The notes beneath the pieces were generated by a model. That model did no database searches. It worked only from the letters and a program-made list of their open reading frames with translations, and was not told where the DNA came from. From Parapedobacter soli (lineage in GTDB: Bacteria > Bacteroidota > Bacteroidia > Sphingobacteriales > Sphingobacteriaceae), in NCBI RefSeq assembly GCF_025460835.1, contig NZ_JAMXAY010000040.1, positions 1 through 45,891 of the forward strand: a stretch of DNA of 45,891 nucleotides, given 5' to 3'. Shown piece by piece: positions 13,296-43,425 of this stretch (position 1 is the stretch's first letter; every line of letters starts with the position of its first letter). The translations under genes were made by a program, and so were the position numbers.

Positions 13296-14903
13296 TTACT
13301 TTTGATTGTCTCGCACTTCGTTCCTATCAAATTTAAAGGAGTAGAGGTCGGCATCTGCTAAAATAAAGCGAACCTGTACGACTTTACCAATCAACGGTGT
13401 AAGATCGGCGCTCCCCCGCCAACGGGCGATTCGGCAAATGGTATCGCCGAAAATAGGATCACTATCTGCTTGGCTGTATCCCGGGATCGGGTTGCCGTCT
13501 TCATCCAACAGCTCAACAAGGATTCCACCAGCGGCGGCGCTCGAGTAATTCAGTTGCAACTCGTCCCCGCCAAAGACCATGGGCTTGGTTAGCAATTCCC
13601 CTCCAGACAGCGGCGCATTAATGGATACAAAGCCGTCCAAGCGAAGTGTGTATCTTCTCAACGAGGTGCTATGACCTGTCCAGTTTCCCTCCACTGCGTA
13701 AAAAGATAATTCATTAAGTTCGTTGTATAGGGCAGACGTTGTTTCTACCATCGTCCAACCAATGAACTGATGACCGTAGTTCCACGTACCGGGTCGCTCA
13801 ATCCCCGGCGGCAAAAACGCCTCATTCCACCGGTTGAACGTGACGCCATCGCGACTGGTCATAAACAACCCTTCTGTCAGCGCCGTACCGAAACGCTCAA
13901 CAGACGATGACCGTAACCGACGATGGTCGAGCTCCGGCAATGCCTCCATAGCAACTGACCATGGACGTTCAATGTACCGAATAGGAAATCCAACAATTAC
14001 ATCCGGTGCACGGTAGTAAGATTTAATCACGTTGTTATAAAGATGCTCTTCCGGAGAGTTCACATAGCGCAGGTCGTGGTAATTATCCCAGTTTACAAAG
14101 TCGGGTGATGTAGCGGTCCGTATCGACCGAATTTTGTCTTCACCTGCCATATAGCGCCAATATGCCCGATAAAGCTGACTTCCGGCATCCCAAAAACCAA
14201 CGTTTTGCGAATCAAAGGAGCCGCCACTGAATACGGGCGACTTACTCATTGGAAACCAATGAATAGCGTCGGCCGATTTAAATACCATCGCCCCTCGCGG
14301 CACCCCCCCAATCTCCGTATAGGAGGCAATCACCGCCTTATACTTTGCATCAGCCGTTGCATCCGGATTCTCGTCGATAAAAACTGCTGCCGAACTGGCC
14401 GCAACCCGAACCCCTGAGGTCTCATCCTCCGTAAGAACGATGTTATTGTTCTTAGAACCTTCAAACTCAAAAAGACCTAAATGGGGCTTTCGCCAGTGTA
14501 TGCCATCGTCACTTTCGGCGTAGCAAAGAAAAAAACCGTGTTCATCATCAATCACCTTCCCTTCTTGTACATTATAGTGTACCGATGCATAATACATCCG
14601 GTACATGTTACCATCCTTAAAAATACTATGATTATTGCAGTAACTACCTTCCCATGGCTCGTCGTGCTCAATCACTATTTCTTGAGGAACCGGCCGATGC
14701 AGCCGTCTTTCCGCACCACCGGACAACCGTTCAACCAGGTAGTCGTCGACCAATAATTGCCGCTTGGTATCGACATCAATTACATTGACAGATGTATCCC
14801 GATGCAACAATCCATCCTTAGGGAACGAGGCACCTGCCCAAGCGACACTAAAAACCACCGAAAAACAAACAATTAATTGGGTTATTTTCTTTTTACGCAT
14901 CAT
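13296..14903 (-). CDS. Secreted five-bladed beta-propeller glycosidase-like protein (paralogue A)
   Basis: 535 aa with a signal peptide (about 1-24). The body resembles GH32/GH43-type five-bladed propellers: 'LLVDDYLVERL' (D53/D54), 'HDEPWEG' (about 80-86), 'YRMYYAS', 'LCYAESDDGIHW', 'GSKNNNIVL', 'FKSADAIHW', 'FDSQNVGFWD', 'YRAYWRYM', 'RSIRTATS', 'FGTALTEGLFMTSRDGVTF'. A C-terminal beta domain follows ('LRRYTLRLDGFVSINAP', 'SGGELLTKP', 'DADLYSFKF'). Two close paralogues occur in this window: the C-terminal part of the protein at 26746-30072, and the protein at 35707-37287. I do not recognise a characterised family; glycoside hydrolase activity is inferred from fold-type motifs and locus. Last gene of the large operon, 71 nt after the symporter fusion. 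Confidence 0.72.
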   Translation of the reverse strand: MMRKKKITQLIVCFSVVFSVAWAGASFPKDGLLHRDTSVNVIDVDTKRQLLVDDYLVERLSGGAERRLHRPVPQEIVIEHDEPWEGSYCNNHSIFKDGNMYRMYYASVHYNVQEGKVIDDEHGFFLCYAESDDGIHWRKPHLGLFEFEGSKNNNIVLTEDETSGVRVAASSAAVFIDENPDATADAKYKAVIASYTEIGGVPRGAMVFKSADAIHWFPMSKSPVFSGGSFDSQNVGFWDAGSQLYRAYWRYMAGEDKIRSIRTATSPDFVNWDNYHDLRYVNSPEEHLYNNVIKSYYRAPDVIVGFPIRYIERPWSVAMEALPELDHRRLRSSSVERFGTALTEGLFMTSRDGVTFNRWNEAFLPPGIERPGTWNYGHQFIGWTMVETTSALYNELNELSFYAVEGNWTGHSTSLRRYTLRLDGFVSINAPLSGGELLTKPMVFGGDELQLNYSSAAAGGILVELLDEDGNPIPGYSQADSDPIFGDTICRIARWRGSADLTPLIGKVVQVRFILADADLYSFKFDRNEVRDNQK

Positions 14904-14974
14904 TTCCGATCGATTTTATTTTATTTCTAACGATTTTCGCCCATCTGAAATTGAAACAGTTGTTGCTCAACGCC

Positions 14975-17428
14975 CTACGATTTAAAGTAGCTACACAGAT
15001 ATCCACCTATTACGCACGAAACCACACTGATAGCACCATATAAATAAACGCTGATATCGGTATAGGATTTCGTCAGCCACACCGCAAGCACGCCGATAAT
15101 TAAACCCGTTATCGCACCCACCGTATTGGCTCGCTTCGTAAAAATACCCAAGATAAATACACCGGCAAGGCTACCGCCCAACACGCCCAAAACCTCTTGG
15201 AACAAATCAAAAATAAACTGGACATCCAATAATGCGATAAACATCGCGCTTACAGTACCAAACACCCCTGCACCAATTGTTGCCCATCGCGCAGCGGCCA
15301 AACTGGATCGATCACTGGCTTGCTGCGAAAGCGCCTGAAAAATATCTGAGGTGAAACTAGCTGCTATGCTATTCATGCTACTGCTCATGGTCGATTGGCT
15401 TGCTGCAAATATCCCGGCAATCACCAAACCTGCAATACCGGCAGGCAGTTGTTGTACAACAAAATAGGGCAAGATTTCGTCCACCTTATCTGCAGCGACC
15501 ACATCCGGGTTGTTTGTATAAAACACGTAAAGGACGGTACCCAATCCAAAAAAAAACACCGTCCCCGGAAGGGTGATCCATGAATTGACCCATAGACTTT
15601 TCGCCGCGCTCTTCTCGTCTTTAACGGTTAGGTAACGCTGGACAATTGTCTGATCTGAGGTATACGGAATGATATTCAGAAAGAAGAAGCCGACGATGCA
15701 GACCCAAAGCACCAAACGCGACGGGTCCCAACCCAAGTGATACCAAGTAAACTTCCCTTCAGCAAGCCCCTGAGAAATCACCGCGTCCAATCCCCCATCC
15801 ACATGCATGATCCCAACAATCAGGCACACGATGGCACCTCCCATAAGCACCACTACCTGCGCAAAATCCGTCCAGATAACGGCCTCGATTCCACCCATTA
15901 CCGTGTAGATAATACAGATGAAGCCCATGATGGCAATAATACCGTAGATATTGCTTCCCGTTACAGAAGCTATGGCTACCGCGGGCAGATACAATACGAT
16001 ACCCGTGCGACCCAGTTGAAACAAAATAAAGGAAACACTTCCCAGAAGGCGGACACTTTTGTGGAAACGATGCTCAAGGTATTCATATGCAGAAGTAATA
16101 CTTAACCGTCGAAAAAACGGGATATAATAACGCACTACAATGGGTACCGTGGCAAGAATCAACACCGATCCGATTGCCAGAGACCAGTCGGTCGCAAATA
16201 CAATCGCCGGAATGGCCATAAACGTAATTGCACTTATTTGCGTACCGTAAATGCTAATCCCCGCCGCCCACCATGGGATACGGCCTCCTGCCGTGAAAAA
16301 ATTTGACGTCGTCTGCTCTTCTTTTTTATCGTAGATGAATCCAATCCAGAGCATAAACCCTAAATACACCACCAACGTCAACCAATTGACCCACCCAAAT
16401 TCCTTCTTTTTGGAAAGCTCCATTAAAACGGTCGATTCCCCGACATCCATCGTTGCCAGCCAATCTTGCTCCCACTTGATCAATGTACCGCCCCAAGCGC
16501 CTTGTTCGCCAGGAAGTGTACCGAAATCCATCCAAGCATCCGTTCCAACATGATAAGCAAGCAGCAACGACTCTCCCGGTTGTTCGTGATCCTGTTGAGC
16601 TGGATATAGCAAATGGTCTAGGCCAAACGCCGCTGCAGGGCCCGGGCCATCTGCCAGGTCGGCCGGTAAGTCTGCCAAGCGTTGCCATTCCCCGCTCACC
16701 ACCCTTCCGTCTTGGTACATGGGAACAAATCGGTATGCATCGCGTAATGACTCAGCTTGCGTACCCAAGGAGTCCCGTCCGCCAAAAAGAAAGAACTCGC
16801 TTTTAAAAGTTGCCGAAACCGCCTGCACCCGCTCGGGGCCGTTCCACGATGGAAGTTCTACCCAAGCGGCCTGGTGAACCTCTTGATTTAAATTCAACGC
16901 ATAAAAATGTTGCTTTCCACTTCCGGAAAGATCGGATCGGCCGCCCGCTAGAAGTACCGTCTGGTCCACCAACGTTCCCGTCATATAGGCCAGCGGAACG
17001 GGAAGTTGTGTAAGGCTATCCAGCCGAAGCTTACCCCCATGGGTAGAAATTACGTATACGCTAGACGAAACTACTTGCCCATCCGTACCGCCAAACAGCA
17101 AAACCTCATCTCTGAAGCCAATAGCCACTCCGTGTGCCAAACGTTTGGGAAGCCGGATATCGGCACGCTCCCATCGTCCTTTCCGCAACAACCAAATTTC
17201 ATCGAATGCCTCTCCAACCTCATCCAAGCCCCCAGCGAAAATCAGCGTATTTCCGCTCGTAGCCATAAACGCGCCCGTCCGTTGTGCCGGCAAGTCGATG
17301 TATTCGTTTAATCGAACCTGGTCGTGCAACTGCGCTTGTACAGATGGAGCATAAAAAAAACTAAGGCCTAGTAAGAGAGCGGCAATAACCCGAGTGCAAG
17401 CTCCCTGTTTTATCTCATTGAATACCAT
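14975..17428 (-). CDS. Fusion of Kelch/NanM-like propeller and sodium:solute symporter
   Basis: 817 aa. Signal segment about 13-32, then a Kelch-repeat propeller (about 45-330: 'TLIFAGGLDE', 'VLLFGGTDG', 'VLLAGGRSD', 'FFLFGGRDS') that would face the periplasm. From about 345 to the end follows a complete SSS-family sodium symporter with some 13 helices ('WLTLVVYLGFMLWIGFIYD', 'TSNFFTAGGRIPWWAAGIS', 'SAYEYLEHRFHKSVR', 'TVMGGIEAVIWTDFAQ', 'IPYTSDQTIVQRYLTVKDE', 'GIFAASQSTMSSSMNS'). NanM-type Kelch proteins mutarotate or epimerise sialic acid; related SSS proteins import sialic acid and other sugars. The fusion suggests anomer conversion at the mouth of the transporter. It lies 2 nt after an SDR gene. 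Substrate likely the amino sugar or acid released by the locus; not decided by sequence. Confidence 0.9.
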   Translation of the reverse strand: MVFNEIKQGACTRVIAALLLGLSFFYAPSVQAQLHDQVRLNEYIDLPAQRTGAFMATSGNTLIFAGGLDEVGEAFDEIWLLRKGRWERADIRLPKRLAHGVAIGFRDEVLLFGGTDGQVVSSSVYVISTHGGKLRLDSLTQLPVPLAYMTGTLVDQTVLLAGGRSDLSGSGKQHFYALNLNQEVHQAAWVELPSWNGPERVQAVSATFKSEFFLFGGRDSLGTQAESLRDAYRFVPMYQDGRVVSGEWQRLADLPADLADGPGPAAAFGLDHLLYPAQQDHEQPGESLLLAYHVGTDAWMDFGTLPGEQGAWGGTLIKWEQDWLATMDVGESTVLMELSKKKEFGWVNWLTLVVYLGFMLWIGFIYDKKEEQTTSNFFTAGGRIPWWAAGISIYGTQISAITFMAIPAIVFATDWSLAIGSVLILATVPIVVRYYIPFFRRLSITSAYEYLEHRFHKSVRLLGSVSFILFQLGRTGIVLYLPAVAIASVTGSNIYGIIAIMGFICIIYTVMGGIEAVIWTDFAQVVVLMGGAIVCLIVGIMHVDGGLDAVISQGLAEGKFTWYHLGWDPSRLVLWVCIVGFFFLNIIPYTSDQTIVQRYLTVKDEKSAAKSLWVNSWITLPGTVFFFGLGTVLYVFYTNNPDVVAADKVDEILPYFVVQQLPAGIAGLVIAGIFAASQSTMSSSMNSIAASFTSDIFQALSQQASDRSSLAAARWATIGAGVFGTVSAMFIALLDVQFIFDLFQEVLGVLGGSLAGVFILGIFTKRANTVGAITGLIIGVLAVWLTKSYTDISVYLYGAISVVSCVIGGYLCSYFKS

Positions 17429-17430
17429 CT

Positions 17431-18222
17431 TTACCAGCTACTCCATCCACCATCTACAATCAAATTATGCCCCGTTACATAGGCTGCTGCAGTGGACGCC
17501 AAGAACACCACGGGCCCCTTAATGTCCTTATCGTCTGCAAACCGACCCAGGGGAGTTAAGCGCTTGTAATTTTCGACAAATTCGTTATCTCCAAAATCCA
17601 GCTCCACACCCGGCCCATACCCGCCGGGACTGATGCAATTGGCCCGTATGTTGTACTTGCCATAAAAAGTGGCGAGCCACTTGGTGAAACCCACAATTGC
17701 CCATTTGTCATAGGTGTAATTTACTGGGCTTGTCATCCCCGTATGTCCGTAAACCGGGAAGTGCGGCCCTTGCACCCCTTGTATAGACCCGATATTGATA
17801 ATATTGCCTGATCCTTGTTTACGCATGACCTTGATTACAGCTTGTGTAATCAACATCAATCCAGTAGAATTTACCGCTTGGGCACGGTTCCAGTCGGCCT
17901 CCGTAAGGTCTTCTAGATCCTTGTAACCGTCTCTCGATACCGCATTATTTACCAGCGTATCAATGCGGCCGAAACGATCAAACACGCGATCGACGAACTG
18001 CTGAATCGAACGACCATCACTCAGGTCAAGCCCCATGCCTTCTGCATGCAACCCCCGGTTCCGCAGCGTCGCGGCGGCCGCCTCACATTTGCTTTCATTT
18101 CGTGAGGCTAAAACCACCGTCGCGCCTGCTTCCGCAAGTGCCTCACAGATCGGCATGCCAAAGTAACCAGCACCTCCCGTTACAATGACTACGTTATCAG
18201 TTAAGCTGAAAAGTTTTTCCAT
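17431..18222 (-). CDS. SDR family oxidoreductase (1)
   Basis: 263-aa classical short-chain dehydrogenase. Rossmann glycine motif 'VTGGAGYFGMPI' (about 14-25), 'DLS' cofactor contact, 'NNA' (92-94), catalytic S146 ('INIGSIQG') and the Y169-x3-K173 pair in 'YTYDKWAIVG', and a C-terminal 'GHNLIVDGGWSSW'. An insertion of about ten residues before the active Tyr ('GHTGMTSPVN') departs from the usual spacing and probably shapes the substrate pocket. These enzymes oxidise or reduce hydroxyls with NAD(P). It is 2 nt upstream of the symporter fusion and 16 nt after the aldo/keto reductase. It could be the C1 sugar dehydrogenase of the proposed oxidative route, or act later on a keto acid or aldehyde. 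Confidence 0.88.
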   Translation of the reverse strand: MEKLFSLTDNVVIVTGGAGYFGMPICEALAEAGATVVLASRNESKCEAAAATLRNRGLHAEGMGLDLSDGRSIQQFVDRVFDRFGRIDTLVNNAVSRDGYKDLEDLTEADWNRAQAVNSTGLMLITQAVIKVMRKQGSGNIINIGSIQGVQGPHFPVYGHTGMTSPVNYTYDKWAIVGFTKWLATFYGKYNIRANCISPGGYGPGVELDFGDNEFVENYKRLTPLGRFADDKDIKGPVVFLASTAAAYVTGHNLIVDGGWSSW

Positions 18223-18238
18223 TTTTTCTCATTCGTTA

Positions 18239-19174
18239 TTAATTCGTCCACATGGCCGGAGTAATCACCTCTTCTGGCATCGCGGCATAAAGCGTCCGAA
18301 GTCTATCTCGGCCTTCGTCGCTAATCGCCTTTCCTGCATAAAGCCCCATGGTATCGTTCACTTGGCTCGATCGCTCGGCTCCGAAAATAATACTGGAAAT
18401 TCCCGGAAGATCCCTAACAAATGAAAATGCCAATTGAGCTACACTCACGCTTTCCCCCCGGGCAATTTCGCCTAATTGACGCAAAGGCTCGGCCGCCTGT
18501 TGAAGATTCCCAGCCAAATGATCTGGATTCACAAAAAAAAGACCTTGCAAAAATACGCTACGGGCAAACACGAGCTTTCCAGCACGCTCCATTTGGGCCA
18601 ATGCACCGCTTTGAATCAGCCGCTGATCAAAGATATTGATTGGTACTTGCATGGCGTCAATGACCGGCTCATCCGCGAAATACACTGCCTCATCCGGATG
18701 GTCGACCGAGATACCGCCCCGCATAATCAATCCCATCTGCTTTAGTTCGTTGAGGATAAGCAACAGTAATTTACGTACGCGTACTATAGGCAGGTGGCGT
18801 TCCATGTGCAACAGCGCAAGGGGAACCGATGGCACGCGCAATGCTTTTAACGAGGCACGGACACTACACACAGCGGCATCGATCGCAACCTTCGAATCGT
18901 CTAGGGACTCACTACCTATTTTAAATTTTGTCACCAATGTAACTGGGGCGGTGCGCGACTGTAAAAATTCGCCAATTAACTCCTCCGCATCTCCATAAGT
19001 ACGCGCAGTATCCCAACAGGAAATGCCTGCATCAAGCGCAGTAGCAAGAACAGCGAATGCTTCCTCCTTACCGGGCCGACCGGCCGGATTAGCAATGCCG
19101 TAATCAAGCCCAAGCGCTACGGTGCCTAAGCTGAGCCTGGGTATCGAGTATCCAAAGTATTCTAAATAATCCAT
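18239..19174 (-). CDS. Aldo/keto reductase family oxidoreductase
   Basis: 311-aa cytoplasmic NAD(P)-dependent TIM barrel. Visible motifs: N-terminal 'RLSLGTVALGLDYGIANPAGRPGKEEA' in pieces, the Asp-Tyr catalytic strand 'ISCWDTARTYGDAEELIGEFL', the lysine strand 'VTLVTKFKIG', 'LALLHMERH', and a C-terminal cofactor loop 'ISSIIFGAERSSQVND'. Related Bacteroidota proteins include L-fucose or galactose dehydrogenase-type AKRs (Asp-Tyr-Lys triad). It abuts the SMP-30 gene with no gap (start 19174, upstream stop 19175). An aldose C1 oxidation paired with the adjacent lactonase would be a natural two-step unit, so this is an alternative to the SDRs as the first oxidation enzyme. Direction and substrate unproven. 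Confidence 0.87.
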   Translation of the reverse strand: MDYLEYFGYSIPRLSLGTVALGLDYGIANPAGRPGKEEAFAVLATALDAGISCWDTARTYGDAEELIGEFLQSRTAPVTLVTKFKIGSESLDDSKVAIDAAVCSVRASLKALRVPSVPLALLHMERHLPIVRVRKLLLLILNELKQMGLIMRGGISVDHPDEAVYFADEPVIDAMQVPINIFDQRLIQSGALAQMERAGKLVFARSVFLQGLFFVNPDHLAGNLQQAAEPLRQLGEIARGESVSVAQLAFSFVRDLPGISSIIFGAERSSQVNDTMGLYAGKAISDEGRDRLRTLYAAMPEEVITPAMWTN

Positions 19175-19969
19175 TTACATTTCAATTAGTATCACTCGCC
19201 CCGGGCCGGGCTCGCCGAAGCCTCCGGTTACCAACAACCTCTGTTTCGTTAACCAACTTACATTACTCGTTAACGGGATTCCCGTGTCGACCGTATCTAC
19301 AAGGGCCCCTTCAGGCGAAATAACCTGCAAAGCCTGCATACCATAATGTGCTATCCACAGGTTGCCATCTTCTCCCATACTCAATCCATCAGGAAGGTTA
19401 CCCTCCGGTATTCCCGAAGGATGTACTGGCAGGTCTGCGAAAACTTCAAGTCCACCCTCCCCCCCTACGTCTATCTTTACAATACGATTACGATAACTCT
19501 CCGCTACATATAACCAATTTCCGCACGGAGAAAACACTAAGCCATTGGGATAGTCCAAGTTCGCTGCCAACACACCCTGTTGACCATTGGCTCTCACATA
19601 AAAAACGCGGCCCGCATGGCGTATCGAATCCGTGAAGAACAACGTACCATCATCAGCCATGATTAAATCATTCGGCACCTGGACCGGTTCACCCGCGCAG
19701 TAGCCTGCCAGTTCGTCGCTGAGCAACCGCCCACTGGGAGAAAACCGTCTGATTGCGGCCAGTTTGCTATCACAAACCAAGTGATCTCCATTCGGCAATA
19801 TGATTTGGCCATTCGGACAGTCGGAGAATGCCCATTGCGTTAGACAACCCTGTTGATCAAATCGCCAAATCACTCCACCGCTCAACGTAGTGAAAAATAA
19901 GTTTCCGTCACCGTCGCTTATCGGTCCTTCGGTGTAAAAGGGCAAATCAGCTATAATCGTCCGTCTCAT
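19175..19969 (-). CDS. SMP-30/gluconolactonase family lactonase
   Basis: 264-aa six-bladed propeller without signal peptide. The family's metal site is visible: Glu in 'YTEGPISDGDG' (E14), Asn in 'VPNDLIMADDGTLFFTDS' and Asp in 'NLPDGLSMGEDGNLWIAHYG', plus an inner Asn in 'DYPNGLVFSPCG'. Members hydrolyse aldonolactones (gluconolactone, xylonolactone) with Ca or Zn. It lies between the aldo/keto reductase (no gap) and the M81 gene (7 nt). A lactonase right beside a sugar dehydrogenase strongly suggests oxidation of an aldose at C1 followed by ring opening to the aldonate. Which sugar is open; in context an N-acetylhexosamine is the leading guess. Confidence 0.9.
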   Translation of the reverse strand: MRRTIIADLPFYTEGPISDGDGNLFFTTLSGGVIWRFDQQGCLTQWAFSDCPNGQIILPNGDHLVCDSKLAAIRRFSPSGRLLSDELAGYCAGEPVQVPNDLIMADDGTLFFTDSIRHAGRVFYVRANGQQGVLAANLDYPNGLVFSPCGNWLYVAESYRNRIVKIDVGGEGGLEVFADLPVHPSGIPEGNLPDGLSMGEDGNLWIAHYGMQALQVISPEGALVDTVDTGIPLTSNVSWLTKQRLLVTGGFGEPGPGRVILIEM

Positions 19970-19976
19970 ATTCTAT

Positions 19977-21443
19977 TCAGCTATCCTCGAACGGATACAA
20001 AGGCACCTTTCTGTGAATATATGTAAATCGGGTCATGTCGGCTTGCGTCGGGCCCTCGGTATCCACCTGGCATATTGTCTTACAAACGGGCCCATAGGCC
20101 GCTATAGGCGCGTTCACACCTTTGGCCACAATCATCCGGAAGGCCTGAGGAACCATGTCAAATGCCAACAGCTGTTGCAGGCTAAACGGTGGAACACGCT
20201 GGGAAGTGAGCATGATGGTATTGCCGTGATCCGTAATAACCAGCGCGGTCAAGCCCATTTCAAATTTCGTGTACCCACCGTGCCGGGCATGCTGTTCGTG
20301 GAATGAACCATTTTTTATCCATTGTAACTCCACGTTGCATCGATATCCCCCCGGCTGTTTGTACCGCAACCCCAGTTCCAGCGTAAATCGGTCACGCGGT
20401 GTATAAGCGCACGCACGCGCGACCGCTTCGGGATCGAAAATAGAGATAAAGAAAGGGCCCTTCCCGTGTTGCTCGAAGGCCTCCAGCAGGCCTACTAAAT
20501 TGCCTGGGGCACCACCTCCGATATTATCGCCCATATCCAGAAAAAGAATCGGGGTTTCCCACACATCCATCTCAGATATAACGGTAACGACATCTTTTTT
20601 TAAACCGTTGAATCTCGATTTATCCGACAGAATGAACTTCCGCAACCGCTCCGCTACGAGGGGGCCAGCGCCGGTTCCTCTTTCTTCTATAACCAGCACT
20701 GACGTGCCCATCTCTGGAACGTCTGAATAGGGGAACCCGATACATACACTCACCGAAAGCACCCCTACTAAAGACTCGAGTTCAGCGGCATACGCAAAAA
20801 GGCTTTTACAGGGTTCAACAGCCGTATGCTGCTGTTCGATGCTGATGGCGAGGGGCAACTCCACGAAGTGAGCTACGGGCTTTACTTCGTTACGAAGCAT
20901 TCTCGCTATTAACAGAGCCGCTTCGCGGCCTACGTCCCGCTGGTCTGTGTGCGGGTTCGTTTTATATGCAATCATCGCATCGGTGGCTGCCACCATCCTT
21001 TTACTCAGGTTGGCGTGGGGATCGAGGGTACCAACAACCGGCACATGCGGCCCGATCTTATTTCGAAGTGCTGTGAGCCAATGCCCGTCCATATCCAGGA
21101 AAAACTCACTCACAGCGGCTCCGTGTGGCGCTACCAAAAAGCCATCGAGCGGACCAGCAGCATCGATTGCAACACCCATCCGACTAATGAATGTTGACAA
21201 AACACTACCCGATACTACCCCCGATGGCAGGGCTTCGGCATAGATAAGCGGAACGGCAACAATGCCTTCTTCCTCCAAAGCCTCAAACATACCCCCCAGC
21301 TCATGATAGGCGTTCCGAAACACGCCGACAACATCGTCGCCTTCGAGCCAATAATGCTGTTTGAAATCCGCCAACGTGGTAAGCCCGTCGACGAATGTAT
21401 TTGACTCGTGATGGATGCCGATCACCCCCACCCGCTTTACCAT
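19977..21443 (-). CDS. M81 family metallopeptidase-like protein (MlrC/DUF1485)
   Basis: 488-aa cytoplasmic protein. The N-terminal MlrC domain has 'GIHHESNTF', 'LVAPHGAAV', 'VVGTLDPHANLS' (metal-binding H/D residues) and 'AYKTNPHTDQRDVG'; the C-terminal domain begins near 'LFLDMGDNIGGGAPGN'. MlrC from Sphingomonas cleaves linear microcystin, but most family members sit in catabolic clusters and have no known substrate. The 'DPHANLS' and 'YKTNPHTD' motifs agree with an intact metal site. It lies 5 nt after ridA-like and 7 nt before the lactonase gene. Likely an amide- or ester-cleaving metal hydrolase for a pathway intermediate; an alternative to the AstE-like protein as N-deacylase. Confidence 0.88.
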   Translation of the reverse strand: MVKRVGVIGIHHESNTFVDGLTTLADFKQHYWLEGDDVVGVFRNAYHELGGMFEALEEEGIVAVPLIYAEALPSGVVSGSVLSTFISRMGVAIDAAGPLDGFLVAPHGAAVSEFFLDMDGHWLTALRNKIGPHVPVVGTLDPHANLSKRMVAATDAMIAYKTNPHTDQRDVGREAALLIARMLRNEVKPVAHFVELPLAISIEQQHTAVEPCKSLFAYAAELESLVGVLSVSVCIGFPYSDVPEMGTSVLVIEERGTGAGPLVAERLRKFILSDKSRFNGLKKDVVTVISEMDVWETPILFLDMGDNIGGGAPGNLVGLLEAFEQHGKGPFFISIFDPEAVARACAYTPRDRFTLELGLRYKQPGGYRCNVELQWIKNGSFHEQHARHGGYTKFEMGLTALVITDHGNTIMLTSQRVPPFSLQQLLAFDMVPQAFRMIVAKGVNAPIAAYGPVCKTICQVDTEGPTQADMTRFTYIHRKVPLYPFEDS

Positions 21444-25611: not shown

Positions 25612-25624
25612 CGTTTTCGCAGTA

Positions 25625-34975: not shown

Positions 34976-35707
34976 CTAGTTTTGGCCCGCCATTTTCAAT
35001 TTGTTGATAATCCGATTAGCTAGTTGGGTGTGACCTTCGGCCGACGGGTGTAAAGGGTCGTCTAACCATCCGTTCTGCATCTCGTGGAGATGTTTACCCC
35101 AATACCGGAAGTGGTCAATTAATTGGACTGATTCTCGTTTCGCGACCGTACGTATCTTATCGACATAGATAGGAAGCCGGGCACGTGAGCCGGTTTTCAT
35201 TGCCTTCATCCCAAGGAAGTCTATTCCGTTTGGCGTCTGCAAAATCGGGATAGCGCCGATCGTACGCACGTTTTCTACCAACAGCTTTAACTCCTTACCG
35301 AAGTCCTCATCGGATTTACCGCTATCCACACAATCGTTTATCCCATACATGAGAAAAACCACGTCAGGTTGAAACCGGGTTACAAACCAATCGAATTGAC
35401 CCACCAGATAAGCTGCGGTCGTTCCGTTCACCCCTGAATTAATGACGATATCGTCATAGCGTTTCATTACCCAGCGGATATGTTCGGCAAACCGTTCGCT
35501 GTAGCTTCGGTGACCATAGGTATGCAAGGCCCCCTGCGTTACACTATCACCTGTAAACACCCAAGTCATGGGTCGGCGGTCTTGCAAGCGGTTAGTTACA
35601 TCCGTTACCCGTTCATGTTTCAGCGTAACTCCACCCGGCCCGGGAAAGGCAACCCAGGATGTAGAAGCCATTAGGAATTTCCTTCTTGACCAAGCTTTGA
35701 CAACCAT
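34976..35707 (-). CDS. SGNH/GDSL hydrolase with twin-arginine signal
   Basis: 243-aa esterase. Block I 'VFTGDSVTQG' holds the nucleophile S55, block III 'YGINDC' (G122-D125), and block V 'DPLHPSAEGH' gives D217 and H220. The N-terminus 'SRRKFLMAS' matches a Tat signal (SRRxFL), implying export in folded form. Relatives are carbohydrate esterases, for example sialate- or acetylxylan-type deacetylases. Its ATG at 35707 overlaps the stop of the propeller gene (TAATG), so the two are translated together and probably act on the same oligosaccharide. Start and substrate are otherwise uncertain. Confidence 0.88.
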   Translation of the reverse strand: MVVKAWSRRKFLMASTSWVAFPGPGGVTLKHERVTDVTNRLQDRRPMTWVFTGDSVTQGALHTYGHRSYSERFAEHIRWVMKRYDDIVINSGVNGTTAAYLVGQFDWFVTRFQPDVVFLMYGINDCVDSGKSDEDFGKELKLLVENVRTIGAIPILQTPNGIDFLGMKAMKTGSRARLPIYVDKIRTVAKRESVQLIDHFRYWGKHLHEMQNGWLDDPLHPSAEGHTQLANRIINKLKMAGQN

Positions 35708-37287
35708 TACTGGAATTTCAATGCATATAAATCAGCATCCTTCATCGCGAAACGCAAACGCACCGTTTTGCCTTGCAATGCACTTACATCCGAGCCACTC
35801 TTCCAATGCACCTTACGACCCACCGTATCACCGAAAAGCGGTTCACATGCATTTAAATCGTATCCCGGTATGGGGCGACCGTTTTCGTCCTGTATCTCTA
35901 CGCGGATTTCACCTGCAGCCGAGGTGGCAAAATTCAGTTCCAGTTCGCCACCTTGGAAGGTAAATGGCTTTGTGACCAATTCACCTCCCGTCATGGGCGC
36001 ATTGATTGATGCAAACCCATCGAGCCGTATGGTGTAACGCCGCAAAGCGTCCATGCCCTTTTTTATGGTACCCCAAAAGCCCTCAACAGCGTAGAGCGAT
36101 AGTTCGTTTGGCGCGCCTTCCAGCGCGGACTGTGTTTCTACCATCGACCAAGCAATGTACTGTTGTCCGTAATGCCACGTTCCGGTCCGTTCAATACCCG
36201 GGCGCAGGAACGCCTCTTCGAGCCGATGGAAATTCACCCGATCACGGCTTACCATAATGAGACTTTCCGTCAACGCGGTACCGAAGCGTGTCTCGCCCGT
36301 TGCTCTCAAGCGACGATTTTCAACGTCCGGAAGTGCCTCCATATTGGCAGACCATTCCCGATGGACGTACCGTACAGGGAATCCAATCAAAAGTTGCGGT
36401 GCACGATGGTAATTTTTAATTACGTTTGTGTAGAGCTGTATTTGGGGTGCATCGCCATACTGTAGGTCGGCCTGGTCCGTCCAGTTAATGAAGTCGTCGG
36501 ACCGGGCCGTGCGAATGGACCGAATCGCCTCCTTGCCCGCCATATAACGCCAGTAGGCCCGGTATTCGTTGCGAGCATCGTCCCAGAATGCCAAGTTTTG
36601 AGAATCGAAGGCACCGTCGGTAATAACCGATTCGGGGTGCATGAGCGTCCATTTGAATCCATCGGGCGATTTAAATGCCAATAACCCCTTAAGCCCACTT
36701 TCAACCGACCAATCCCGAATAATTGCCTTGTACTTAGCATCTGGTGTTACGTTCGGGTTTGAGTCTTTAAAAACCACCGGATGGCCGAGGTCTGGATAAA
36801 CATCGCCCAGCTTACCGCTGATCATTACAATGTTATTGTTTTTGGAGCCATTGAACTCAACCAAGCCAAGGTTCGGTTTTGTCCAATGGATGCCGTCGTC
36901 ACTCTCCGCATAACAAAGCTTATAGGGGTGTGAATCGTCGGTTACCTTACCTTCCACGATGGTGAAGTCCCAAGCGCTGTAATACATTTTGTATTTGTCG
37001 CCATCTTTAAACACGCTGTGGAAACTCGATCCACTGCCTTCCCAGGGTTCTTCATGCGTGATGGCAACCTCCATCGGCCGGGGATGATGGAGGAGCTTAT
37101 TCGCTCCTCCAGTCAACTTATTGATTAAATAGTCGTCAATGAATAACTGCCGATCGCTTCGGATCTGCAGTACGCCCTCCTTATCGTCTGCAACGGCAGC
37201 ACAGCCACCCATTGCAATGATCAACATGAGGAGCGTTAAGCGCCGTTTTCTCTTACCTATCGTCCCTTTACTTTTCTTCGACATCAT
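35707..37287 (-). CDS. Beta-propeller glycosidase-like lipoprotein (paralogue C)
   Basis: 526 aa. Long basic N-terminus then a hydrophobic stretch ending 'AMGGC' (C29), a likely lipobox, so probably anchored at the outer membrane. Same architecture as the proteins at 13296 and the end of 26746: 'LFIDDYLINKL', 'HEEPWEG' (the other copies have HDEPWEG), 'YKMYYSAWD', 'LCYAESDDGIHW', 'FDSQNLAFWD', 'YRAYWRYM', 'FGTALTESLIMVSRDRV', 'LRRYTIRLDGFASINAP', 'DADLYALKF'. It lies 29 nt after susD and is coupled to the SGNH gene. By position next to SusCD it is the best candidate for a surface enzyme that starts depolymerisation. No characterised family recognised. Confidence 0.72.
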   Translation of the reverse strand: MMSKKSKGTIGKRKRRLTLLMLIIAMGGCAAVADDKEGVLQIRSDRQLFIDDYLINKLTGGANKLLHHPRPMEVAITHEEPWEGSGSSFHSVFKDGDKYKMYYSAWDFTIVEGKVTDDSHPYKLCYAESDDGIHWTKPNLGLVEFNGSKNNNIVMISGKLGDVYPDLGHPVVFKDSNPNVTPDAKYKAIIRDWSVESGLKGLLAFKSPDGFKWTLMHPESVITDGAFDSQNLAFWDDARNEYRAYWRYMAGKEAIRSIRTARSDDFINWTDQADLQYGDAPQIQLYTNVIKNYHRAPQLLIGFPVRYVHREWSANMEALPDVENRRLRATGETRFGTALTESLIMVSRDRVNFHRLEEAFLRPGIERTGTWHYGQQYIAWSMVETQSALEGAPNELSLYAVEGFWGTIKKGMDALRRYTIRLDGFASINAPMTGGELVTKPFTFQGGELELNFATSAAGEIRVEIQDENGRPIPGYDLNACEPLFGDTVGRKVHWKSGSDVSALQGKTVRLRFAMKDADLYALKFQ

Positions 37288-37316
37288 TATTTTCTTTTTA
37301 AACCAAACACTAACAA

Positions 37317-38813
37317 CTAGTTAGGGTACCCTGGATTCTGTTTTACCAACGGTTCTAAAGACAAAGTAGGTGTAGCAATGGGGAACAGCAATAAATACCG
37401 ATCGTCTTGTCTACCCACGAGTGAAGGTACGCGTTCAAACGCTGCGTCAAATCGAACAAGGTCCCACCAACGTTTTCCTTCGAATAGAAATTCACGAAGG
37501 CGCTCGTCCAGTATGGCATTATCGTTATCTGTTTGCGAGCCTGAAACAAACACATGGGAGGAAAAGTCTTCGCCGTAGGCTCGTTGCCTAATGCGGTTTA
37601 TTTCTGCCGATGGATCTTGATTCAATGCGTTCTTTGCTTCTGCCCGCAAAAGCAATACATCGGCATACCTATAGATAATATAATCATCAATAAAGTATCG
37701 CTGTCCTGCCACCAGTGTTCCATTAAACTTTTTTTGAATGGCCGAATGGAACACCGGTCCCGATCCGTCATTACCATAGATTTCGATAATCGAGTGTTCT
37801 TTCCGCTGGTCGCCGTCGAGGAACTTATTACGTGCGATATCAGAAGGCCCCCAGAACGGCACCCCTGCGTAGGGAATGATCTCGTTTATGGTTTCTGCTG
37901 GTACGCCGCCGGGCATGAAGACATCGGAAGCATACATCCATGCATAAATGGTATTTACCGGTGACTCTTCATAATTGAACGTAACCGCCATTAATATTTC
38001 CTTATTCCGTTTATTGCTGTAGTCGAAAACACTGCCAAAATCGGGAAGCAAATCCGTATCCGCCTGTTCGACCTCATTCAGTGCCGAAAGTGCCACATTG
38101 AAATCCGGGTCTCCACCGCCCAATCTTTTACCCGTCCATAGGTATACATCGGCTTTCAAGACAAGTAGCGATGGAAGCGACCACATATCTCGCCCATCCT
38201 GAAATACCATACCGCTAAATCGTGTTTCGGCCTGCTCAATATCCGACTTAATCAATGCGAAGACATCTTCGACAGACGATCTTTCCCGCTGGATACTTGA
38301 CAAATCGGATGTCGGTTCGGTAACCAAAGGTAACTCGCCCCACGTTTTGCTCATCGTAAAATATGCAAATGCCCGCATGGTGTACGCATGGGCCAAGATG
38401 TTGTTTTTCGTCTCTTCTGAGTTAAATTTGATTCCCGGGACGTATTTCAGCAACAAATTCGCATGATGCACCAAATTATACATCCCGCCCCACGTAGTCG
38501 GTGCCCCAGAAAATAAATTCCCGGAATTATCCGGAGTGAGCAAATTCTCATACCAATTCTGAAATACTGCGGCTCCGGCATTTTGACCCATGGTCTCGCT
38601 CCTGGCCTCGCCCCAAATAAATAAATTGTCGACAGCTTGGCCACGTAAGATGGTATACATACCGTTCGCGGCTCCTTGTGCGTCTGACTCCGTCTTCCAA
38701 AAAGACGCATTGGAGATTTCACTCACCGGTGCCAGATTCAGCTCGCTTTCACATGAGCTATTGAAAAGTGTAATTGCAGTTACAATCACCGATATCATTA
38801 AATACTTTCTCAT
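37317..38813 (-). CDS. SusD/RagB family glycan-binding lipoprotein
   Basis: 498 aa. Lipoprotein signal ending 'LFNSSC' (C21), then the SusD N-terminal TPR-like pattern ('LAPVSEISNASFWKTESDAQGAANGMY', shown in shorter form as 'FWKTESDAQ'), 'NNILAHAYTMRAFAYFTMSKTWGELPL' (here 'RAFAYFTM', 'WGELPLV'), and the C-terminal 'INRIRQRAYG', 'LDERLREFLFEGKRWWDLVRF', ending in 'QNPGYPN'. SusD proteins sit on the cell surface, cap the SusC barrel and bind oligosaccharides. The pair with susC, 17 nt apart, marks a polysaccharide utilisation locus. The ligand cannot be read from sequence. Confidence 0.96.
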   Translation of the reverse strand: MRKYLMISVIVTAITLFNSSCESELNLAPVSEISNASFWKTESDAQGAANGMYTILRGQAVDNLFIWGEARSETMGQNAGAAVFQNWYENLLTPDNSGNLFSGAPTTWGGMYNLVHHANLLLKYVPGIKFNSEETKNNILAHAYTMRAFAYFTMSKTWGELPLVTEPTSDLSSIQRERSSVEDVFALIKSDIEQAETRFSGMVFQDGRDMWSLPSLLVLKADVYLWTGKRLGGGDPDFNVALSALNEVEQADTDLLPDFGSVFDYSNKRNKEILMAVTFNYEESPVNTIYAWMYASDVFMPGGVPAETINEIIPYAGVPFWGPSDIARNKFLDGDQRKEHSIIEIYGNDGSGPVFHSAIQKKFNGTLVAGQRYFIDDYIIYRYADVLLLRAEAKNALNQDPSAEINRIRQRAYGEDFSSHVFVSGSQTDNDNAILDERLREFLFEGKRWWDLVRFDAAFERVPSLVGRQDDRYLLLFPIATPTLSLEPLVKQNPGYPN

Positions 38814-38830
38814 AACTAGTTTTTTATCGA

Positions 38831-41800
38831 TTACAAGGTTAAAGCAATGCCGATTAAGAAATTTCGGGATATGGGGTAGGACCCATTGTCCGTCCCTCCG
38901 TTTTCGGGATTGATTCCCTTATAATTGGTGAAGTAATATAGGTTTTGTCCTGACACATTAAATCGGACACCCTTCATCCGAAGCCGCTGAAGCATTTCTT
39001 CAGGCAGTTCATAAGACAACGTAACTTCTCGTAGCGCGAGATAGTCTCCTTTCTCATACATCGTCGAAACGCCCCGCCCGATATTGTATTGCCAGTCGCC
39101 GTAATAAAGCTTTGGAATATCCGTCACGTCTCCTTGTTTCATCCACGATTGCGCGACATATGAGGAAAGTCCTAAATCGCCCGCAAGCTGTGCTGAAGTT
39201 GTCGCCCTGACATAATTATAGATGGTATGGCCGGTCATATAGTCCATCCTCACTGTAAAACCGATACGCTTATAATTTACCGTATTGGTAATACCACCCG
39301 TCCATTTGGGGTAGTAGTTCCCCATGTACACTCTATCTCGATTATCGATGGTATCATTCCGGTCGTGGTCGAGGAATATGGCATCTCCAGCATACTTGGT
39401 TTTGTCTGTTCCTTCGGGCAGGATATCATAGGGAGCATTAGCCGCTTCTTGATCCGTCTGGTATATACCGATGTGTTTAAAAGCATATGCTTCTCCCATT
39501 GTGCCGCCCTCTTGCAGCCCGCCCATCCATTCATAGCTATTCGTCTTATTATTCCAGAGGTATTCGCCTCCGATTCGGTTTCTATCTGTTCCGTTTTCAG
39601 GAAGCTTAACAATAGTATTCTTCACGTAAGCACCGTTGACTGAAAGCACCCACTGGAGGTCTTTTTTCGGCTTTACGGGCTGAGCAGTCATCGCAACTTC
39701 GACACCCCGGTTCTGAACCGTTCCGAGGTTCGTCAATACACTTCCAAAGCCAGTCGATTGCGGTAGCACGCGGCTACTTAACAGGTTACTTGTAACCCGG
39801 TTAAAATAATCGGCCGTCAGCGATACGCGATTAGCAAAAAGTCCGATGTCCGCACCAATGTCGAACGTAGCCGTTTGTTCCCATTGCAGTTCATCGTTGC
39901 TGAGCACGGTATTGAGAATGCCGGCGCGCCCACCATATACGGCGCCCCCACTATAGGAGCCCTGTGCTTGGTAAGGGCCAAGCGCATTCACGTTACCGTT
40001 AATACCGTAACTGGCTCTGACCTTAAACTGATTGAAGGCATTGCTCAACGGTGTCCAAAAATCTTCGTTATGCAGATTCCAACCAGCAGAAATTCCCGGG
40101 AACAGCCCCCACTTGAATTTCGTTCCCAGGTTCGAAGCCGCATCGTACCGTGAATTGATGGACACTAGGTACTTTTCTTTATAATTATAATTGACACGCG
40201 CAAAGTATCCCATATAGGTATAATTAGCTCTCGAACTGTTTACTCCCACGGGTATCGCCGATGCGTTTAATGTGGGAATAAGATCTGTCGCTGCGCCTCG
40301 GCCGGACGCGCTGAAAGCAGACTCTTCCGTCTTGATAAAGGAGTAACCCGCTGTGGCGTCTAAGTTGTGATTGTCAAAAAAAGTTTTTGTGTATGCGAAG
40401 ACGGCGTCCGCAGCTTGTTGTTGATACCCCCTTCTGGATTCGGACGCTGTTCGGGTCTCATCATAATTCGGGCCGTCCCAATTCGACTTAATGAATTGCC
40501 TGTTTATCGAAGTCCTGCTCAGCAGTGATACTTGCGGTGAAAAGCTGAGGCCGGGTAAAATATCCCATTTCCCGCCCACTGAGTACGCGGTATTAGCAGC
40601 TTGCGAATCGCCGACAAAAAGATTCGTGCGGTAGAGCGGGTTGCCCTTCCCGCCGTTCTGCCCTTGCGAAAGCGTTCCGTCCTCGAACGTGAGCTTTACT
40701 GTGGGAGCCACCTGGAGCATCCGTCCGAATATATTTGACTCATCAGACACTTTATCCGAGACGTCGCCCGAATGGCGGATACTGGAGAAAATCATAAGAT
40801 TATCACGCAACTTTAACTCCCCGCGGGCATTCAATGACAGTCTCTTATATCCCGTTTGAATGGCGACACCCTTAGTGTCCATATAACCTACAGATACGCT
40901 GTAATTCGCTTTTTCGGTTCCGCCCATTGCAGAGAGGTTGTGGTTGTGCGTCTGTCCAGTTCTGAACATCACGTCCCGCCAATCCGTACCTTTGAATATT
41001 ATAGTCTTGGAGGGATCCAACGGGTCCGGCATACTTTCCCAACCCTCTGCGAGTTTGTGCTCGTTTTCGGGCGTGAGGTACTGGGTGGTATAAAACGTAT
41101 TATTGGTCAGATCGTTGCCTGTCCCTGCACTTAACGGGCTCGTAAGAATAGCTTCAAAAAAAGGCCATTTCTTCGCCGCAGTCTCAATGCCCAACCGATT
41201 GTAGTAGATAAAATCACGGGCTCCCAGCATCTTCAGCTTGGATGTATAGTTGGACAATCCGAAGTTGTAATTGTAACTGATTTGTGTTCTGCCCGAACTT
41301 CCCGATTTGGTGGTTACAATGATAACGCCGTTTGAACCGCGTGCACCATAAATGGCTGTCGATGCCGCATCCTTCAGTACTTGGAGAGACTCAATGTCTG
41401 CCGAATTGATCCCAGCCAAATCGGGAGAGATCACACCATCGATGACATACAAAGGATAAGACGTGTTTGGGTCAAGCGCGGTACCACCTCTGAGTACAAT
41501 CAAAGGTGATGCGCCCGGCTGGCCTGAAGTAGAAGTTACCCTTACGCCCGGCAATGTGCCTTGTAACGCATAGCCGGCATTGCTAAAAGGAACGTTTTTC
41601 AACACGTTTGAATCGAGTTTTGATATGGCGGTAGTAAGCAGCTCCCTGGATTGTTTGCCGTATCCAACCACTACTACTTCATCCAACTGTCCTTCTTCCG
41701 GCGTTAGTTGTACATTGAGTAATGTTCTTCCCCCTATTGGAACTTCGCTTCGGACAAAACCTAGACTGCTGAAGACGAGAGTTCCATTAATATCGGGCAC

Positions 41801-42052
41801 AGACACACTATACCGGCCATCTTGGTCTGTGGTTGTGCCAGTCTGATGCCCTTTAACAGTTATGGTTATCCCATCCAAGGGCGTTCCATTCACATCGGTC
41901 ACGACACCCGTTACAGGCGTCTGGGAAAAAGCATTCAACCCTACCATGATAAAAAGTAACACGAAAGGGACAATTTTATTTCCCTTGGACATCACGTGCC
42001 GAGCAATCGGGGTGGTTCGCCATCTTCGCATCATAATTATAAGAATGTTCAT
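38831..42052 (-). CDS. SusC/RagA family TonB-dependent outer-membrane transporter
   Basis: 1073 aa. Signal peptide, carboxypeptidase-regulatory-like domain ('VTGVVTDVNGTPLDGI', 'GTTTDQDGRYSV'), TonB-box region 'LDEVVVVGYGKQ', plug domain ('GVRVTSTSGQPGA', 'DIESLQVLKDAASTAIYGARGSNGVIIVTTK'; the SusC signature), then a 22-strand barrel ending 'RNFLIGIALTL'. It imports oligosaccharides through the outer membrane using TonB energy. The ATG at 42052 puts about 20 polar residues before the hydrophobic core; ATG at 41992 ('MSKGNKIVPFVLL') would give a cleaner signal peptide and may be the true start. No extra N-terminal STN domain, so no direct anti-sigma signalling is expected. It lies 62 nt after the aminotransferase gene. 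Confidence 0.96.
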   Translation of the reverse strand: MNILIIMMRRWRTTPIARHVMSKGNKIVPFVLLFIMVGLNAFSQTPVTGVVTDVNGTPLDGITITVKGHQTGTTTDQDGRYSVSVPDINGTLVFSSLGFVRSEVPIGGRTLLNVQLTPEEGQLDEVVVVGYGKQSRELLTTAISKLDSNVLKNVPFSNAGYALQGTLPGVRVTSTSGQPGASPLIVLRGGTALDPNTSYPLYVIDGVISPDLAGINSADIESLQVLKDAASTAIYGARGSNGVIIVTTKSGSSGRTQISYNYNFGLSNYTSKLKMLGARDFIYYNRLGIETAAKKWPFFEAILTSPLSAGTGNDLTNNTFYTTQYLTPENEHKLAEGWESMPDPLDPSKTIIFKGTDWRDVMFRTGQTHNHNLSAMGGTEKANYSVSVGYMDTKGVAIQTGYKRLSLNARGELKLRDNLMIFSSIRHSGDVSDKVSDESNIFGRMLQVAPTVKLTFEDGTLSQGQNGGKGNPLYRTNLFVGDSQAANTAYSVGGKWDILPGLSFSPQVSLLSRTSINRQFIKSNWDGPNYDETRTASESRRGYQQQAADAVFAYTKTFFDNHNLDATAGYSFIKTEESAFSASGRGAATDLIPTLNASAIPVGVNSSRANYTYMGYFARVNYNYKEKYLVSINSRYDAASNLGTKFKWGLFPGISAGWNLHNEDFWTPLSNAFNQFKVRASYGINGNVNALGPYQAQGSYSGGAVYGGRAGILNTVLSNDELQWEQTATFDIGADIGLFANRVSLTADYFNRVTSNLLSSRVLPQSTGFGSVLTNLGTVQNRGVEVAMTAQPVKPKKDLQWVLSVNGAYVKNTIVKLPENGTDRNRIGGEYLWNNKTNSYEWMGGLQEGGTMGEAYAFKHIGIYQTDQEAANAPYDILPEGTDKTKYAGDAIFLDHDRNDTIDNRDRVYMGNYYPKWTGGITNTVNYKRIGFTVRMDYMTGHTIYNYVRATTSAQLAGDLGLSSYVAQSWMKQGDVTDIPKLYYGDWQYNIGRGVSTMYEKGDYLALREVTLSYELPEEMLQRLRMKGVRFNVSGQNLYYFTNYKGINPENGGTDNGSYPISRNFLIGIALTL

Positions 42053-42114
42053 AATGTTAATTGGTTTTTTAAAATGTATTACATATAATCAAAATTAATT
42101 CATTTAACCTAATT

Positions 42115-43425
42115 TCAGAGTTCATCGAACACCTTGGCAGCCGCGTCCAACGCGAATCCAATGTCGTCTTCCGTATGTGCCGTACTGATATACCACAATC
42201 CTCTTCCGATGATTCGAACTCGTTGGTTATGCATTCCCGCTATGAATCGACCTAGTTTGCTTTTGTCAGAAGCCAGCGTGTCGCGATAATCTCTCAACTC
42301 GTTCAAATCGGTAAATGCAATGTGAAACATTGGCCCGGGGCCATCGACCAATACATCCAGGCTTTTTGCCTTGGCCAATTTACGAAGCCCCTCCATCAAC
42401 CGTTTACCCAATGCGAACATACGCTCATACGGTTGTTCTCGATCGAGTTCGTTGATAGTAGCAAGTGCAGCAGCCACGCTTGGGTTCCCCGAGTTCATCG
42501 TGCCCGCATGGATCACCACCCCGTCTTCAATCAACTTCATCCAGCTTCTCTTTCCCACCACGGCGCTTATCGGGTAACCACTTCCCATTGCCTTCGCGAA
42601 TATTGAAAGATCGGGCGTAACCCCATAAAACCCCTGTGCTCCACCTAGGCCGAGCCTGAAGCCGGTAATCACCTCATCGAAGATCAAGGCGATGCCATAC
42701 TGGTCGCACAATTCGCGGAGACCGCGGAGAAAACCTTTTTGCGGCATGATACAGCCGCTATTACACATTACCGGCTCCGTGATAATTGCTGCTATATCGT
42801 TATGTTCCTTTTCAAGAACCTCACCAAGCAGCTCCAGGTCATTCCATGGTAGCACACGAAACTCCCCCCTCGTATTTGCCGGCAGTCCTTCGCTCCACGG
42901 ATAAACTTCCGGCCTCTTCCGATCGCCAAGCGCTGCCTCGGAAGGCGCCGAGATCGCCCACGCCACATTATCCAACCAACCGTGATAGTGCCCTTCAAAT
43001 CTCAGAAATCTCTGCCTGCCCGTCTTCGCCCGCGCAACCCGAAGAGCTGTTTGGACGGCTTCAGATCCATCCAAGCAAAAGCGCATCAACTCGGCAGAAG
43101 GTATCAATTGGTTGAGTTTCTCGGCCAGTTCGATTTCCTGAATGTGCTGCCCGGCAAATAGCTGCCCTTCCTGCGAATACGCGTTGACAGCCTGCAGCAC
43201 GGCTGGGTGCGAATGCCCGAGGATCAACGGACCCTGACTGAGGGTAAAGTCTAGGTATTGGTTTCCATCAACATCGGTTATTCGGCTTCCGTTGCCCTCT
43301 TTATAAAATAGCGCGTGAGGAAAGCTGAATTTCCGGAATTCAGAAGAAACACCGCCGGCGAGAACTTTTCTTGCTCGCTCAAGCAACGCGGCTGACTGTT
43401 TATAACTCGGTCTATCAATCATCAA
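42115..43425 (-). CDS. Class III aminotransferase, glutamate-1-semialdehyde aminomutase-like
   Basis: 436-aa fold-type I PLP enzyme. 'GHYHGWLDN' (PLP stacking), 'LIFDEVITGFRLG' (Asp that contacts the PLP ring), and the lysine in 'IFAKAMGSGYPISAVVG' form the active site; the N-terminal pattern 'VLAGGVSSEFRKF' and 'LDFTLSQGPLILGHSHP' are as in GSA aminomutase (HemL) relatives. It is unlikely to be HemL itself: its place at the head of a glycan operon suggests a catabolic amino-transfer or amino-migration, perhaps on an amino sugar acid or amino aldehyde. Promoter about 20-30 bp upstream. ATGs at 43425 and 43422 are equally possible. Confidence 0.88.
   Translation of the reverse strand: MMIDRPSYKQSAALLERARKVLAGGVSSEFRKFSFPHALFYKEGNGSRITDVDGNQYLDFTLSQGPLILGHSHPAVLQAVNAYSQEGQLFAGQHIQEIELAEKLNQLIPSAELMRFCLDGSEAVQTALRVARAKTGRQRFLRFEGHYHGWLDNVAWAISAPSEAALGDRKRPEVYPWSEGLPANTRGEFRVLPWNDLELLGEVLEKEHNDIAAIITEPVMCNSGCIMPQKGFLRGLRELCDQYGIALIFDEVITGFRLGLGGAQGFYGVTPDLSIFAKAMGSGYPISAVVGKRSWMKLIEDGVVIHAGTMNSGNPSVAAALATINELDREQPYERMFALGKRLMEGLRKLAKAKSLDVLVDGPGPMFHIAFTDLNELRDYRDTLASDKSKLGRFIAGMHNQRVRIIGRGLWYISTAHTEDDIGFALDAAAKVFDEL

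Follow-up and report, generated by a model that had tools for sequence, protein, structure and literature searches.

A polysaccharide utilization locus of Parapedobacter soli with a co-conserved gene set suggestive of oxidative, non-phosphorylating amino-sugar breakdown

We describe a gene cluster of Parapedobacter soli in which a polysaccharide utilization locus (PUL) may be coupled to an oxidative, non-phosphorylating amino-sugar pathway fed by a sialic-acid-type sugar; taken as a whole, we hold this proposal evenly between acceptance and doubt. Its intracellular part is the firmer one: judging from the enzyme families encoded, it is probably an oxidative, non-phosphorylating amino-sugar module. 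The cluster is a minus-strand run of 20 open reading frames at 13296–43425 of the window, which is the entire 45,891-base contig NZ_JAMXAY010000040.1 of a 5.17-Mb genome. Intergenic distances range from −47 to +71 bases, so the tight one-strand packing described in an earlier note on this DNA holds up, with 71 bases as the largest gap. A SusC/SusD pair with linked glycan-active enzymes makes the cluster a PUL: Pfam recognises SusC, SusD, GH20, two GDSL-type esterase genes and a BNR propeller, together with two SDR dehydrogenases, an AKR, an SMP-30/SGL protein, an AstE/AspA protein, a fold-II PALP enzyme, RidA and a DHDPS-family protein. Every enzyme family that the earlier note had named was thus recovered, and four more were not in its list: an M81/MlrC metallohydrolase, a class-III aminotransferase, a kelch-SSF transporter and a 989-amino-acid protein. 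As it had also stated, the 20 genes include no recognisable kinase, NagA/NagB or NanE; three of them have no Pfam match.

The module was traced in other genomes through its pyridoxal phosphate (PLP) enzyme, a threonine-synthase-like PALP protein (22770–23900; minus strand, like all cluster genes) that we propose to be a 2-amino-aldonate ammonia-lyase. A scan of named genomes with a PALP alignment gave at least 567 relatives, the best 80 of which were retained (38 Bacteroidota, 23 Verrucomicrobiota and 19 Planctomycetota loci); the same scan with the single PALP protein as query found no relative. Counts for Bacteroidota refer to the 31 loci of at least 17 kb, seven shorter ones being set aside. 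They depend on identity thresholds of our own choice, reach about 10 kb to either side of PALP and miss genes farther away; several genera supply more than one locus, and the 31 loci are not independent events.

The PLP enzyme is not widespread. With the own genome included, homologues occur in 8 of 201 same-family genomes (E ≤ 1e-40), in 2 of 296 genomes of a phylum-wide draw (E ≤ 1e-50) and in 2 of 395 of a class draw (E ≤ 1e-40). Where they do occur in Bacteroidota, the core partners are nearly always present: SDR2 (23897–24706), RidA (21449–21832) and the SMP-30/gluconolactonase-type lactonase (Pfam SGL, 19175–19969) in all 31 loci, AstE (24703–25671) and M81 (19977–21443; Pfam DUF1485 and MlrC_C) in 30 each, and the DHDPS-superfamily protein (21855–22763) in 28. 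Over all 38 loci the figures are 37 for SDR2, 35 for AstE and 34 each for RidA, SGL, DHDPS and M81; among the short loci, L034 holds nearly the whole core, and in L036 a fuconolactonase neighbours the PLP enzyme and AstE is absent. Because of this near-constant company, the gene set is not a chance assembly.

Less frequent members follow patterns of their own. AKR (18239–19174) and SDR1 (17431–18222; gluconate-5-dehydrogenase/KduD-like, at scores under curated cut-offs) always come together, both in 14 loci and neither in 17 (Fisher p = 4e-9, relatedness ignored), and the aminotransferase is counted in five. The lactonase shares a single reading frame with AKR in two relatives (G692 and G784), and with M81 in another (G736). 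On the surface and transport side, a kelch protein is found in 30 loci, the sialidase-like propeller BNRb in 26, an MFS transporter in 21, SusD in 19, SusC in 13 and a kelch-symporter fusion in eight. The MFS transporter and the fusion were never counted in one locus, and 2 of 31 loci have neither (Fisher p = 6e-6, relatedness ignored).

Beyond the Bacteroidota, the order of the genes changes and the partners stay. The planctomycete loci L055 and L100 read RidA-M81-AstE-SDR2-PALP, and L092 holds the same five genes in another, divergent arrangement. All 23 verrucomicrobial loci have an AstE homologue (at least 33% identity) near PALP, and 13 have an HpaI-like protein (25–31% identity, one examined with Pfam). 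That the core proteins are kept near one another despite changed order is the best evidence that they act together. The gene set, which the earlier note proposed to look for in other genomes, is therefore co-conserved in Bacteroidota, with subsets in Planctomycetota and Verrucomicrobiota. This conservation across genera and the partial, reordered versions elsewhere support the logic of the oxidative amino-sugar pathway put forward there; its completeness, also suggested there, is not established.

The enzyme families are compatible with such a module. Serine/threonine dehydratases act on beta-hydroxy-alpha-amino acids, a class to which 2-amino-aldonates belong, and the imines that these dehydratases release are hydrolysed by RidA. 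The nearest named enzyme to the AstE/AspA-type N-deacylase is DoeB, an N-acetyl-diaminobutyrate deacetylase; its gene takes part in a 47-base overlap and its start codon is uncertain. The M81/MlrC-type metallohydrolase is a proposed second N-deacylase. SDR2, which is glucose-1-dehydrogenase-like, is the candidate core sugar 1-dehydrogenase; a relationship with the N-acyl-D-mannosamine dehydrogenase known from Flavobacterium is possible, and a literature search gave nothing on it. AstE, SDR2, AKR, SGL, PALP and DHDPS all keep their putative catalytic positions, with roles that we presume; the D-Y-K-H positions of AKR, kept in 15 sequences, we take to be its catalytic tetrad.

The DHDPS-family protein bears most on where the pathway begins. 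Its profile finds N-acetylneuraminate lyases as top PDB matches (5e-54), and its best-scoring NCBIfam models are PRK04147 (162.8 bits, cut-off 281) and nanA (136.4 bits, cut-off 382), both under their curated cut-offs. In an alignment of 13 sequences S47, Y136, K164 and D191 are invariant and T48 and E192 nearly so, the window having Ser at 48. We take these positions to be the Schiff-base Lys, the catalytic Tyr, the GSTG carboxylate site and the D191/E192-type substrate pair, which together give the active site of an N-acetylneuraminate lyase. No DHDPS protein of at least 47% identity was found in the 42 non-Bacteroidota loci with the PLP enzyme, many of which are short; some hold distant family members (22–28% identity), one of them, verrucomicrobial, scoring best against dapA.

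A putative second aldolase of RraA or HpaI type lies in 19 of the 28 DHDPS-bearing Bacteroidota loci. RraA-like proteins, found in 19 of the 31 loci (Larkinella, Dyadobacter, Runella and several Cyclobacterium among them; an example is L042:12531-13175), are candidate sugar-acid aldolases. A lyase opening the route and a separate aldolase closing it would fit this distribution.

Outer proteins of the relatives point towards sialic acids as well. BNRb, the extracellular sialidase-like BNR propeller encoded next to AstE, matches a BNR/Asp-box protein (2.6e-19) and then sialidases from 3.5e-18. Its E228, R244, R306 and GWYCY motif align with sialidases, an N-terminal Arg and Asp falling outside the significant alignment; the aligned positions may represent the Glu base, part of the Arg triad and the Tyr nucleophile of GH33. 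The kelch protein of one relative matches the YjhT/NanM structure 2uvk (1.2e-15). In the window the NanM-like kelch domain (Pfam NANM, 1.5e-17) is fused to a sodium:solute symporter (SSF) at 14975–17428, a probable inner-membrane importer.

From gene content, family membership, conservation and association, all directly observed, we infer every reaction that follows, along with their order and the substrate. Outside the cell, esterases, GH20 and propeller proteins would trim a complex glycan, with import through SusCD, and the kelch-symporter (often an MFS transporter in relatives) would bring in the product. The N-acetylneuraminate-lyase-like aldolase would cleave a nonulosonate of the sialic-acid type, giving pyruvate and an N-acetylhexosamine, for instance N-acetylmannosamine (ManNAc). 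The core SDR, with AKR where present, would oxidise C1 to a lactone, which the SMP-30 enzyme would open to the N-acetyl-aldonate, and the AstE-type enzyme would strip the acyl group from it. From the 2-amino-3-hydroxy acid so formed, the threonine-synthase-like enzyme would remove first water and afterwards ammonia, with the imine hydrolysed by RidA. For the resulting 2-keto-3-deoxy-aldonate, many relatives might use an RraA/HpaI-type aldolase as the last enzyme, and this genome might use unlinked enzymes of the 2-keto-3-deoxygluconate (KDG) type. We favour placing the lyase first because the DHDPS protein is lyase-like, relatives carry sialidase- and NanM-like propellers, and a second aldolase is present in 19 of 28 loci; our confidence in this order and feed falls slightly short of even.

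Several observations weigh against this proposal. The window has no BNRb, and its own BNR protein (25625–26743) is weakly sialidase-like (Pfam BNR_2, 1.9e-11), with no signal peptide seen by eye. RraA-like proteins are not all aldolases; none of RraA or HpaI type lies within reach in 11 of the 31 loci (9 of them DHDPS-bearing), including the close L033, L035, L037, L038 and L039, and the window cluster itself shows no second aldolase, so that DHDPS could be terminal in the window and in those nine loci. L034, equally close to the window and short, does have an RraA-like protein. DHDPS is absent from 3 of 31 loci, and its association with BNRb is not significant (Fisher p = 0.06). Neither DHDPS, PALP nor AstE reaches an NCBIfam cut-off among the families shown (25 of 42 for PALP). 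The association in Planctomycetota is weaker, with M81 in 8, AstE in 6, SDR2 in 5 and RidA in 3 of 19 loci, many on short contigs. A reported activity for any of these proteins was not found in the literature.

Elsewhere in the genome, NagB is present over its cut-off, which makes plain N-acetylglucosamine (GlcNAc) less likely as the sole target. An N-acyl-glucosamine 2-epimerase (AGE), also over its cut-off, lies on another contig in a separate SusCD/MFS/ROK locus. With the two, a phosphorylating route would be available to ordinary GlcNAc and perhaps to ManNAc. That ManNAc could go by phosphorylation is a further point against our proposal; the presence of a phosphorylating route points to a role for the oxidative set outside it. 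A weak NanE-family match (25.7 bits) lies in a 497-amino-acid frame and exceeds the cut-off only with its frame neighbours. We had considered the lack of a good NanE as an argument for ManNAc only, and dropped it since AGE is present. The genome also encodes, off the cluster, two members of the KDPG-aldolase family and an RraA-like protein, so that KDG could be disposed of there. In total, three DHDPS-family proteins are encoded; a distant one is found at L144 (G000:C106:10000-26000) with an SDR and two BNR-like propellers.

The order given in the earlier note begins instead with GlcNAc, N-acetylgalactosamine (GalNAc) or ManNAc released by GH20, which would be oxidised, opened, deacetylated and deaminated, DHDPS acting last to split the 2-keto-3-deoxy-aldonate into pyruvate and glyceraldehyde. 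GH20 is indeed in the cluster, the DHDPS gene adjoins PALP within the core block in many loci, and no other aldolase is seen in the window cluster and nine DHDPS-bearing loci. However, within the roughly 10 kb covered on either side, the window GH20 has a homologue in a single one of the 31 relatives. A second putative aldolase accompanies DHDPS in 19 of 28 loci, and NagB elsewhere in the genome may make an oxidative route for GlcNAc unnecessary. The DHDPS family was correctly called; its terminal role is not established, the protein being neuraminate-lyase-like. We therefore regard this order as unlikely, at roughly half the weight of a lyase-first route.

Still less probable is a substrate, for instance a 6-deoxy-N-acetylhexosamine or the 2,4-diacetamido-2,4,6-trideoxyhexose of legionaminic or pseudaminic acid, whose C6 is not open to phosphorylation. 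AstE with M81, and PALP and RidA with the aminotransferase, would then serve two acylamino groups. In its dedicated form, a long shot to the same degree, a legionaminic/pseudaminic-type nonulosonic acid would pass through a lyase, oxidation to aldonates, double deacylation and double deamination, the trideoxyhexoses being oxidised because 6-phosphorylation is impossible. M81 in 30 of 31 loci and the aminotransferase in the window speak for it, as does the neighbouring 4595–11362 region, whose genes look like an oxidative set for a 6-deoxysugar of the L-fucose type. On the other hand, the aminotransferase is counted in 5 of 31 relatives, L033 (genome G748) has no M81, and the argument is one of stoichiometry only. 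Very doubtful is a module for non-sugar compounds, either N-acyl-beta-hydroxy amino acids or peptide-like ones, with lactonase and SDRs serving another branch. For it, AstE is nearest to DoeB of ectoine breakdown and M81 is of MlrC type; against it, SGL and SDR2 are in all 31 loci, kelch in 30 and BNRb in 26, with SusD (19 of 31) and SusC (13 of 31) in about half or fewer at the thresholds used.

The lyase-first route can be compared with known systems. The ong pathway of Pseudoalteromonas prydzensis is an oxidative chitin (GlcNAc1A) route reported from marine Gammaproteobacteria and one Betaproteobacterium (PMC9537276). It has in common with the cluster GH20, a sodium:solute symporter (SSS), TonB-dependent import, an N-deacetylase, a PLP deaminase and a RidA protein; an unphosphorylated N-acetyl-aldonate is handled and the PLP deaminase yields KDG and ammonia, the same logic that we propose here (PMC9537276). 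The enzymes differ: OngB is of D-aminoacylase type and OngC a fold-III PLP enzyme, whereas the cluster has an AstE/AspA-type deacylase and a ThrC-like fold-II PALP protein (PMC9537276). The accessible part of that paper gives extracellular oxidation by a lytic polysaccharide monooxygenase as the start, uses KdgK and names no lactonase, whereas a cytoplasmic dehydrogenase and a lactonase are proposed for the cluster (PMC9537276). RidA and an SSS transporter are thus both present in the cluster, and no D-aminoacylase-type protein is recognised among its 20 genes; with neither the deacylase nor the PLP family matching, the cluster would work like ong in its logic and is not ong. A description of this gene set was not found in the open-licence literature, where the ong paper is the one clearly relevant, and nothing useful was found on M81 or on legionaminic/pseudaminic catabolism.

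Two further routes are close in part. The oxidative L-fucose route of Campylobacter jejuni, with its fuconolactonase and UxaA-type dehydratase, has the same non-phosphorylating logic; unlike the cluster, it is not known to involve an amino group, a deacylase or a PLP enzyme. SusCD import is, we presume, common to the cluster and the Bacteroidetes sialic-acid pathway. The latter runs through NanL, NanE-II, RokA, NagA and NagB, and resembles the cluster in its neuraminate-lyase-type aldolase and its NanM- and esterase-type proteins (PMC10017367). It has an epimerase and a kinase, whereas the cluster, with no NanE or AGE epimerase and no kinase recognised among the 20 genes, would rely on an oxidative deaminating module (PMC10017367).

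The remaining cluster genes are mostly surface proteins. SusC (38831–42052; CarbopepD_reg and Plug domains) is a TonB-dependent transporter and SusD (37317–38813) a glycan-binding lipoprotein; they are followed by a 526-amino-acid propeller with a lipoprotein-like signal by eye (35707–37287), a GDSL esterase (34976–35707; counted in 16 of 31 relatives) and the GH20 beta-hexosaminidase (33043–34950). A secreted-looking protein at 26746–30072 combines a GDSL_3 esterase, an alpha/beta-hydrolase-like segment and a C-terminal propeller. The three propellers of the earlier note correspond to this C-terminal half (26749–28200), the 526-residue protein and its paralogue, a secreted-looking protein of 535 residues (13296–14903; 55% identity to P0006), the three domains being about 55–60% identical, with a fourth copy at G000:C112. 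Neither single-domain copy matches a Pfam family; a mediocre model of the 526-residue protein (pLDDT 62) gives GH32/GH43-like matches at low TM-scores, a hint of fold class. The secreted-looking 989-amino-acid protein (30063–33032), also without Pfam match, has homologues of about 52–58% identity in a few relatives and a model too poor for a fold search (pLDDT 51); it may represent a new family of glycosidases with a link to deoxyhexose genes. In relative G718 its homologue sits in a PUL with RhaT-, rhaM- and deacetylase-type genes. The class-III, GSAM-like aminotransferase (42115–43425) is 68–72% identical in relatives that keep it. A GntR/FCD protein on the plus strand (12582–13286), adjoining the cluster in several relatives, is its probable regulator.

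Downstream on the same strand, 4595–11362 encodes a fuconolactonase-like amidohydrolase, a two-gene UxaA-type dehydratase, a RhaT permease, an rhaM mutarotase, a PQQ dehydrogenase with a cytochrome c domain and a xylose-isomerase-like protein; a pyruvate carboxylase gene lies at 731–4219. Together with the context of the 989-residue protein in G718, the 4595–11362 set hints that the glycan carries a deoxyhexose too.

If our reading is right, the cluster represents a second, independently assembled route for oxidative amino-sugar breakdown, whose deacylase and deaminase families differ from those of ong and which is found whole or in part across three phyla. The AstE-like, ThrC-like, M81 and RidA groups, annotated so far at the superfamily level only, would gain a function. 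Bacteroidota would then be able to use sialic-acid-type or other N-acetylated sugars without a kinase, NagA or NagB.

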